The notes under the pieces were generated by a model, which ran no database searches, was not told where the DNA came from, and saw only the letters and a program-made list of their open reading frames with translations. DNA of 64,000 nucleotides from Sordariomycetes sp. S80-01Y (Eukaryota; Ascomycota; Sordariomycetes): NCBI GenBank assembly GCA_037042185.1, contig JAXQJY010000021.1:186001-250000 (forward strand). The letters are read 5' to 3'. Below, piece by piece: positions 55,045-58,165 of this stretch (its first letter is position 1; the number at the start of each line of letters is the position of its first letter). A program made the position numbers and the translations under genes.

Positions 55045-56295
55045 TTACAAGTTGCCACGCTCGTCCTGCTCCCGCTCGATAGCCTCGAACAGACTCTTGA
55101 AGTTGCCCGCACCGAAGCCCTCGAACTCGTTCCTCTGGATGATCTCGATGAAGACAGTCGGGCGGTCCATCAGGGGCTTTGTGAAGAGCTGCAGCAGGTA
55201 GCCACCCTCGTCGTAGTCGATGAGGATGTTCAGGCGCTCGATGGTGGCAAAGTCCTCGTTCAGCTCCCAGTTCCTCTTCTCCGTCTTGAGGCGGTGGCGC
55301 ATCGTGTCGTAGTACGTCGAGGGGACGTTGATGAACTCGACGCCGCGGGCCCGCAGCGCAGATACGGTGGTGATGATGTCCTTGGTGAGGAGGGCGATGT
55401 GCTGGACTCCGGGACCGGAGTTGAAGGTGACGTACTCCTCGATCTGGGACTTCTTCTTTCCGGGAGCGGGCTCGTTGATGGGCATCTTAACGAGGTTGTT
55501 GGGCGACGCCATAACGATGGAGTTTAGAGCGGAGAACTCGGTCGAGATCTGCGAGTCGTCGACCGACCAGAAGCGGTGGAAAGACAGACACTTCTCGTAG
55601 AAGGCGCAGGCGGAAACCATCTCGTGCCAAGACTGGTTGCCGACGCAGTGGTCGACGCGCGCCAGCGGCACGTCGGGAAGAGTGACGGAGGAGGTGAGCT
55701 TCTTGCCCTCGCGGAACCCTGGGAGGAAGGGGCCCGTGTAGGAATTGCGGGAGATGAGGGTGTGCGTGGTGTCGCCGTAGGTGCAGATGGAGGCTGTGGT
55801 GACGGAGCCATGCTCGGGGTCCTTGTGCACACGGGGCGCTTGAACAGCATCCGCACCTTCAGCTACGGCCTTGCTGTAGACGGCTTCGACGTCGTCGACC
55901 TCAAAAGCCACATCCTTGACAGCATCGCCGTGCTTCTCGAGGTGGGCGTGGACCTCCCTCAGCTGCTCCTTTTCTGCTTCCGAGATGGGCTCATCCTCCG
56001 GGAGGTGCTTGGCTGAGCGGATGGGAGATGTGAAGACGAAGCGGACGTCGTTGTTGCCGACGACGTACGAGGTGAAGTAGCGGCTGCCTGTCTCGAGACC
56101 ACGGTAGGCGACGTGCTTGAATCCGAAAAGTGAGGTGTAGTACGAGGCGGCTTGCTTTGCGTTGCCAACCCACCATGTTACGTGGTCATATCCGACGAAG
56201 TTGGCTGGGGGCTGGACGGCGAAGCTACTGTCGAGTTGGGTTGAGGGTTGCACTGGCCTCGCCGGGGGCGAGTCTGTGATGGCGGAGGGTGCCAT
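55045..56295 (-). CDS. hppD: 4-hydroxyphenylpyruvate dioxygenase (HPPD)
   Basis: An intronless 416-aa enzyme that converts 4-hydroxyphenylpyruvate to homogentisate, the second step of tyrosine catabolism and the source of pyomelanin precursors in fungi. Two vicinal-oxygen-chelate halves are seen. The N-terminal half starts [13 protein letters not shown] and the catalytic C-terminal half starts [10 protein letters not shown]. The Fe(II) ligands are visible: His216 in VDHCVGN, His299 in VQHIALL and Glu384 in FIEIIQR. The C-terminal helix [18 protein letters not shown] gates the active site and is intact. The frame is open upstream to 56502, but the Met at 56295 fits the family. No other tyrosine-catabolism enzyme lies in the window. 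A TTC36-like gene is divergent at 1.07 kb. Confidence 0.97.
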
Positions 56296-57367
56296 TGTGA
56301 GGAGGATAAGAGTATCTAAGAAGAACAAACGTGTAGCTGTGAAGACTGGTTTGATCCAAGGGCTCGAAATCCGAGTGAGGAAGAGTCTGGAGGCGTTGAT
56401 AGTTTCGAGAGGATGTCTGAATAATACAGAAGAGTTGATTCGAGGCTTGAAGTAGGCGACGCTTCGTATATAGGGGCCTGTGACGGTGAGATCGTGTGAC
56501 AAGCAACCAGGCTATCCGCAGGATAGCGGGGCGCCATGAGCCGCAATCATCGACAATATGCGCTCGGAATGCCTCCGCACCTCAAACTCCTCCGCTGAGC
56601 CTCTGGCTTGCTACGGCACCGATCGATAACTCCCCTCTAAAGAGGGTTGGGACGGTGGCACGGCTACCAACGGGGGGCGAAGGGCGGCATAGGCCAAGTG
56701 CGTGTCAGCCCCACCATGTCGGAGAGATGATGTAGATTCAAGGCTTAGTCTGTCTAGACTGTTGCATTCAATTGCGGAGGGTGGTAAGATGCGCAAAGGT
56801 TGATTTGCAATCGCTCTGACGGACGGTGTTCCGCGCGATCAGTCTTGGGGCAGACCACATCTGCTGCTGTCGCAGTCCCTTCATCACGACCAGGTAATGA
56901 CAAGCAACGCCCGTCAATTCCTTGATGCATCCGCATTGAATCAACCCGTTCATACCCCACAGAACTGGAGTTTTCAATGTGACAAAGGCCCGAGCAGAAG
57001 GATGGACGACGTGGTGGTGGTAGGCGGAAAGGTGCCGTTGGCGTGAGTAGCCGCCGCAAGCCGAGGCTGCCCGCCGCTTCCAAGCGCCGCTCTGGGGTGG
57101 TAAGCATCGCGCCTCGCGACCTTATCGCTGGGCGCCCGCGGGTGATTTTGAAAGTACATGCGCTCAGAGTGACGGTCCGGGCGAAATCTCCAGTTTTGCG
57201 GAAGCGTTTTGAATGCCGAGTAAAGTCAAAAACCGTCTCTTCGATCTGACCAAAACTCAACTCTCGCTGCCCACATTGAAACATAGATTGAAATCCGCAT
57301 CCCTTCAGCCATTTCAATCAAAGCAGCCGTCAAAAAAAGCCCGTCACCCTTCCGTATAGCCGTTACC
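56296..57367. promoter_or_regulatory. Shared 1.07-kb divergent region (HPPD / TTC36-like)
   Basis: It lies between two outward-facing start codons, long enough for two separate promoters. The HPPD side has a TATATA box at 56467-56472 (listed separately). The TTC36 side has an AC-rich leader before 57368. The middle holds an open minus-strand frame (56754-57317) without protein character. Confidence 0.45.
56467..56472 (-). promoter_or_regulatory. hppD: Candidate TATA box of HPPD
   Basis: A TATATA hexamer, about 170 bases before the HPPD start codon, inside a GC-rich context (CCCCTATATACG on the HPPD strand). The assignment is from motif and distance only. Confidence 0.4.
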
Positions 57368-58165
57368 ATGGCCGCAGTGAGCTTGAGTAACCACGATATA
57401 AACGTGCTTGAGAAGATCAAGGACCCCGAGTCCAATCCGACCGCAGGTGTCATAACGGACGACACCCTCCCCCGCGACCCTCACGTAATCGACACAAGCG
57501 CGTACGAAAGAGTTGTCGCCAAGGAGCGCGAGATTATCCAGTCCATCCAGAAGCTCGAGATCCAACTGAGCCGGTCCATGGCGGAAGACTCGTCGGAAAC
57601 TGCCATCGAGGGATATCAGCAATGCGCCTCCGACCTCAGTGATCTCATCACTGAATTTCCAGACTACGCCAGCGCAAGAAACAACCGTGCGCAAATAGCT
57701 CGCAGATTGTACGGGGACGCGATGCTGCTCAACGAGATATCGGGAATGCCCGTGCCCCTCATTGAGCAGCCACAGCGCGAGGAGAAGTTGAAGGCTTCGA
57801 AAGAGGCATTGAATGACCTTGGACAATCCATCGCCCTCCTCACACCGGCATCTTTCAGCACACCTATTTCCCCACAGGCAGCACGAACACTGTCAATGGC
57901 GCACACCCAGCGGGCCGCAATCTACCTCAAGACGGCCAAGCTGCTCGCATACCGGTCCCTCGATATAGACGAGTCGCGGCCGGAGGCGACTTGGGATCGG
58001 CTGGAGTTTGAGGAGGCAGCGTCTCGAGATCTAGCTTTCGGCGGGCGATACGGGAACCAGGTCGCCAAGGGGCTCGCGGTGAGCGTCAATCCAACGGCCA
58101 AGCTATGCGGGCAAATCGTTCGAGAAGCTATGAAGAAGGAGTACGGTCCGGCTTTCAGCGGATAG
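57368..58165 (+). CDS. ttc36: TTC36-like tetratricopeptide protein
   Basis: A single-exon, 265-aa protein with no signal peptide or membrane span. It opens INVLEKIKDPESNPTAGVI, which resembles the short acidic N-terminus of TTC36. The TPR core is at about 77-200 with FPDYASARNNRAQIARRLYGD. The C-terminal block is FEEAASRDLAFGGRYGNQVAK followed by NPTAKLCGQIV, which lines up with human TTC36 (AArDFErAA, FAr, NPYAALCN). It is longer than the animal protein (about 189 aa), mainly because of a 40-residue insertion between the TPR motifs (about 122-165). In mouse, TTC36 guards HPD against PELI1-driven ubiquitination. In fungi the role is unproven. Its divergent neighbour, HPPD, is exactly that partner. 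Confidence 0.85.
   Translation: MAAVSLSNHDINVLEKIKDPESNPTAGVITDDTLPRDPHVIDTSAYERVVAKEREIIQSIQKLEIQLSRSMAEDSSETAIEGYQQCASDLSDLITEFPDYASARNNRAQIARRLYGDAMLLNEISGMPVPLIEQPQREEKLKASKEALNDLGQSIALLTPASFSTPISPQAARTLSMAHTQRAAIYLKTAKLLAYRSLDIDESRPEATWDRLEFEEAASRDLAFGGRYGNQVAKGLAVSVNPTAKLCGQIVREAMKKEYGPAFSG

Follow-up and report, generated by a model that had tools for sequence, protein, structure and literature searches.

In the ascomycete Sordariomycetes sp. S80-01Y, the gene for 4-hydroxyphenylpyruvate dioxygenase (HPPD, also HppD), an enzyme known as a herbicide target and as a drug target in tyrosinaemia, stands next to and diverges from a small gene that is very probably hmgX. We consider it likely that HmgX is a fungal relative of animal TTC36 that is dedicated to HPPD and acts on it after transcription, as a chaperone or stabiliser. 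Both genes lie in a window of 64,000 nucleotides taken from contig JAXQJY010000021.1 (C4:186001-250000), whose numbering is used below, and the hmgX-type gene is referred to as the partner gene. The features on which the argument depends are the following.

55045..56295, minus strand: HPPD, a complete intronless frame of 416 aa
56296..57367: the divergent intergenic region between HPPD and the partner gene, 1,072 bp with 54% GC
57368..58165, plus strand: the TTC36-like, HmgX-type partner gene, a complete intronless frame of 265 aa
55963..56016, minus strand: the insert in the N-terminal domain of HPPD, residues 94-111, from the HMMER alignment to 5ec3 and 3isq
55048..55059, minus strand: the C-terminal RGNL of HPPD, followed by the stop codon; the tail with T382 (TNME) known from mammalian HPD is missing
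57668..57715, plus strand: the core block of the partner, residues 101-116 (ASARNNRAQIARRLYG), common to TTC36 (ASAYNNRAQARRLQG in the hand-entered human sequence)
58013..58141, plus strand: the C-terminal block of the partner, residues 216-258 (EAASRDLAFGGRYGNQVAKGLAVSVNPTAKLCG...), a family signature that aligns with the C-terminal block of TTC36

The HPPD passes the NCBIfam equivalog TIGR01263 with 451.1 bits against a cut-off of 277, and its best match in the PDB is 8jbw_A, at 557 bits. The first-pass annotation had described an intact enzyme with the ligands His216, His299 and Glu384, and this is borne out by a single frame in which the 2-His-1-Glu iron ligands H216, H299 and E384 fall inside conserved blocks of the PDB alignments; the spacing of 1.07 kb on opposite strands given there is also correct, as the two genes diverge with 1,072 bp between their start codons. 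In the whole genome (30.9 Mb, 16 contigs), HPPD and the partner protein each match their own locus only at E 0.001. Compared with the 393-aa chain 5ec3 (human HPD), the HPPD is 16 residues longer in the region of residues 94-111. Keller et al. (2011, PMC3203155) described a 13-aa stretch found in ascomycete HPPD alone, and the insert seen here is probably that stretch.

The identification of the partner as HmgX is very probable given its position, its size, its lack of introns and recognised domains, and the type of HPPD beside it. In Aspergillus fumigatus, hmgX (AFUA_2G04210) is a 771-bp gene without an intron or a conserved domain (Keller et al. 2011, PMC3203155), which by its length would encode about 256 aa, compared with 265 aa here; the partner gene likewise consists of one frame, of 798 bp including the stop codon, and matches 0 Pfam families at E 0.01. 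Like the partner, which is the immediate and divergent neighbour of hppD, HmgX of A. fumigatus and of Penicillium marneffei (PMAA_031980) adjoins hppD, and the same arrangement was reported for most ascomycetes sequenced by 2011, many of them with an apparent bidirectional promoter, with Neurospora crassa and Magnaporthe grisea named among the species that have an HmgX homologue (PMC3203155). The ascomycete N-terminal insert in HPPD is a further feature shared with the HmgX systems.

The published genetics give this gene a role in tyrosine breakdown. In A. fumigatus, tyrosine induces all genes of the cluster, hppD and hmgX included; after deletion of hmgX, tyrosine is not used and pyomelanin is impaired, hppD mRNA being unaltered, and homogentisate is undetectable in the hmgX/hmgA double deletion (PMC3203155). 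The HmgX-eGFP fusion is cytoplasmic (PMC3203155). In P. marneffei, the deletions of hmgX and hpdA are alike in their growth and pigment defects and differ in their macrophage phenotype (Boyce 2015, PMC4374905), and because of this difference, HmgX may be required under some conditions only. Both hppD and hmgX occur in all three cluster types recognised among 38 clusters from Dothideomycetes and Eurotiomycetes (Greene 2014, PMC3914699), and in 2024, HmgX was still termed a possible cofactor or mediator (PMC10853476). The hppD-hmgX pairing is, therefore, not new, as adjacency, co-induction and requirement are already in print for other species; the first-pass annotation had proposed to check adjacency and co-expression, and both points are answered in Keller et al. 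(PMC3203155), provided that the partner is HmgX.

Judged from its sequence, the partner is a member of a Pezizomycotina family to which Pfam assigns no domain. Nothing in NCBIfam exceeded its cut-off, and the sole model returned, the tetratricopeptide repeat (TPR) lipoprotein model GltE, scored 16.6 bits where its cut-off is 225. The closest named relatives, at 76-79% identity, come from Amphichorda felina, Clonostachys solani and Hapsidospora chrysogenum, all of them Hypocreales, an order to which this fungus probably belongs as well, and some family members have source names that read "Tetratricopeptide repeat protein 36" or alike. The AlphaFold2 model of the partner (mean pLDDT 90.3) predicts a helical repeat of the protein-binding kind, and a Foldseek search by itself gave no match at E 0.001. 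Eight residues are invariant in the family, among them Q109, R112, G229, A244 and C247, the last being the sole cysteine in the set. The search for relatives returned 72 proteins, none of them named from Aspergillus or an animal, and of 7,996 proteins scored with a three-sequence profile of the lichen-fungus kind, 1,038 passed E 1, with no named Aspergillus among the 120 listed. With the family profile, 29 pattern matches in viral contigs and 40 in genome contigs yielded no relatives, and plasmids gave none either.

All comparisons with human TTC36 use a sequence entered by hand rather than a database record. Against this sequence, the fungal profile scores 36.4, 42.7 and 42.5 bits in hmmsearch when built from 23, 136 and 93 rows, and the corresponding hhalign probabilities are 97.9, 98.5 and 98.5 percent, with 174 columns aligned at 98.5 for the 93-row profile. 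The match runs in three collinear pieces, covering TTC36 residues 3-100, a weak middle and residues 140-179, so that the partner carries in order the N-terminal motif, the NNRAQ core and the C-terminal NPxAxLC block of mammalian TTC36 (HBP21). In alignments read by eye, 5 of the 8 invariant residues (the five named above) are also present in human TTC36. The fungal protein differs in being longer (265 aa compared with 189 aa) and has an insertion after the core block. The controls stay far below these scores: 200 shuffles and one reversal of human TTC36 do not exceed 5.6 bits, and the best of 177,635 distinct PDB sequences reaches 16.4 bits at E 0.048 with a 19-row profile. For 18 frames of at least 150 aa from three other loci of this genome that match human TTC36, the profile gives at most 1.6 bits (3.6 for the best single domain), and hhalign gives a probability of at most 0.9 percent. 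Thus, the alignment in the core and C-terminal block noted in the first-pass annotation is real at the profile level (42.5 bits, 98.5 percent) and weak at the level of single sequences. We regard homology between the partner and TTC36 as well supported by the profile comparison, and orthology as likely.

The route known from mammals would not carry over unchanged. In 2019, work in mouse connected TTC36 with the stability of HPD (PMC6753076); in mouse and human cells, it binds HPD as its partner, with the second VOC domain being critical, and it blocks the phosphorylation of HPD T382 by STK33, which would recruit PELI1 (PMC6753076). In the fungal HPPD, residue 416 of 416, the end of RGNL, aligns to residue 381 of the 393-aa 5ec3, and no phosphorylatable T382 with a TNME motif follows. 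Because the protein stops at RGNL opposite residue 381, the phospho-degron is absent here, and we reject the STK33/PELI1 route for this fungus. A search of the genome for the Pellino FHA domain returned 0 of 1, yet the control gave no signal either, so it is no test of absence. Overall, two parts of the first-pass annotation hold, namely that the partner is TTC36-like and that the link with HPPD very probably predates animals, the latter being supported by the fungal hmgX genetics in print (PMC3203155); the STK33/PELI1 mechanism that it cited from mouse, in which T382 is shielded, is unsupported in an HPPD that lacks this residue.

The arrangement that we propose is as follows. HmgX would be a small cytoplasmic helical protein of the TPR type, dedicated to HPPD, and a divergent promoter would allow tyrosine to turn on hppD and hmgX jointly. 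After transcription, HmgX would bind HPPD, the site in mammals being the second VOC domain of the enzyme, and the bound enzyme would be kept folded, active or undegraded, which would enable the flow of tyrosine to homogentisate and pyomelanin. In animals, the degron route (T382-STK33-PELI1) may have been added to this older stabilising role. The dependence of HPPD on a helper is physical in mammals, through TTC36 (PMC6753076), and genetic in fungi, through HmgX (PMC3203155). A dedicated chaperone or stabiliser is the most economical account because both systems have in common a small, probably helical protein on which HPPD depends and a post-transcriptional effect; we infer that in this fungus the partner binds HPPD, acting as a chaperone or stabiliser and not as, for instance, a metal-loading or allosteric factor. 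We also find it rather probable that HmgX and TTC36 form one orthologous group, a chaperone for the single enzyme HPPD that goes back to the last ancestor shared by fungi and animals, if not further. A generic Hsp70/Hsp90 co-chaperone was considered and dropped, having no sequence support in the PDB profile search; HOP, SGT and STUB1 differ from the family in that no PDB sequence matches its profile better than E 0.048.

Several results weigh against the relationship with TTC36. In BLASTP, the partner matches human TTC36 weakly (30.4 bits over 59 residues, in the core only), human TTC36, searched against the genome, finds three other loci with five matches and misses the partner gene, phmmer with human TTC36 places the partner third of the four frames returned, two others scoring higher, and no Pfam TPR model matches the partner even at E 1. 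These results would fit a generic, fast-evolving TPR protein whose resemblance to TTC36 arose convergently within the TPR superfamily, the two links with HPPD having arisen independently. We nevertheless consider this improbable, as the fungal profile sets TTC36 apart from the frames of the other loci and from the PDB, the collinear match extends beyond the core to the N-terminal and C-terminal blocks, and two independent partnerships with HPPD within one superfamily would be a coincidence. Human TTC36 itself matches many TPR proteins (54 PDB sequences at E 0.01), which the fungal profile does not, and this would explain why the human sequence draws other TPR-like loci first.

HmgX could instead assist HPPD in catalysis or redox chemistry, for instance in iron loading or reductive reactivation, with the effect on half-life in mouse being secondary to binding. 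The product is lost at normal hppD mRNA, Keller et al. speak of HppD specific activity, and the HppD protein level after hmgX deletion is not reported in the excerpts of their paper (PMC3203155), all of which would suit such a helper, as would the missing T382, since the mouse degradation route is then not the shared part. On the other hand, no redox or metal motif was seen in the partner by eye, C247 is the only invariant cysteine, and the predicted fold is of a protein-binding kind, so we hold a catalytic role to be possible and, on balance, unlikely. That the two genes are chance neighbours, with the partner unrelated to HPPD, is more doubtful by far. Neighbouring genes in fungi are often unrelated, and the pair is flanked here by a TFIIH Ssl1 gene on one side and, by eye, a gene for a ribosomal protein on the other, but hmgX adjoins hppD in most of the ascomycetes sequenced by 2011 and homogentisate is lacking once hmgX and hmgA are both deleted (PMC3203155). 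By our own estimate, which assumes one gene per ~3 kb and about 10,000 genes, a named pair would be immediate neighbours by chance about 2 times in 10,000.

The link between HmgX and TTC36, as an HPPD helper common to fungi and animals, looks new. We did not find it in the literature: among 5.39 million papers, with most subscription papers and bioRxiv preprints outside the set, TTC36 is mentioned in 118 and hmgX, sometimes in another sense, in 25, with no paper naming both, which is no proof of absence; a TTC36 label is already present in the database names of some fungal members. Since 2011, HmgX has stood as an orphan "accessory factor" of HPPD, and the tie between TTC36 and HPD came from an unrelated direction. 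If the link is true, the 2011 statement that no HmgX homologue was reported in Homo sapiens, Caenorhabditis elegans or Dictyostelium discoideum (PMC3203155) would be out of date as regards humans. The ascomycete-specific stretch of HPPD would become doubtful as the proposed HmgX-binding site, given that TTC36 binds a mammalian HPD in which this stretch is missing, and the stabilising role would be the older one, to which animals later added the T382-STK33-PELI1 route. Joining the two proteins would also raise the testable question of why HPPD should depend on a helper of its own in organisms so far apart, and it would make fungal genetics usable for a mouse tyrosinaemia gene, so that ancestral parts of the mechanism could be separated from animal-only ones.

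In Aspergillus, hmgX is part of a cluster of six genes that also contains hmgA, fahA, maiA and hmgR, whereas here all matches to HGD, fumarylacetoacetase (FAH) and maleylacetoacetate isomerase (MAI) are on contigs other than C4, which carries HPPD; the six-gene arrangement is, therefore, broken up in this genome. Among the pathway genes searched, which did not include hmgR, only the HmgX-type gene stands beside HPPD. HGD has three matches over the cut-off, two on C10 and one on C5, so there are three HGD-like loci and one HPPD. Six fumarylacetoacetase-like matches, two of them over the cut-off, are spread over C10, C8 and C14, and 1 of the 11 MAI-type matches exceeds the cut-off, on C8.

On C10 (C10:2158500-2168400, positions 3228-8579), an HGD-like and a fumarylacetoacetase-like gene occur together with a cytochrome P450-like gene, recognised by eye, between them; this P450, its role again judged by eye, could be a phenylacetate-type hydroxylase feeding homogentisate. 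On C8 (C8:122000-129500, positions 2645-5101), a second fumarylacetoacetase-like gene is paired with the only MAI match over the cut-off, and from this pair it follows that the lower pathway is duplicated and spread over contigs. The further HGD-type matches over the cut-off are at C10:2626460-2626930 and C5:390568-390864.

The intergenic region between HPPD and the partner contains CCG/CGG triplet pairs, which could be candidate sites for a Zn2Cys6 factor. It also contains the following frame, which was dropped as a third gene for lack of a Pfam match and is probably spurious.

56754-57284, minus strand: an open frame of 176 aa without a Pfam match

Beyond the pair, HPPD is flanked by a TFIIH Ssl1-type gene with at least two exons (53166-54652), of which the frames 53166-53768 and 54050-54649 match PF04056 and PF07975, and the partner gene is flanked by what appears by eye to be a ribosomal protein L27-like gene with introns (58840-59510).
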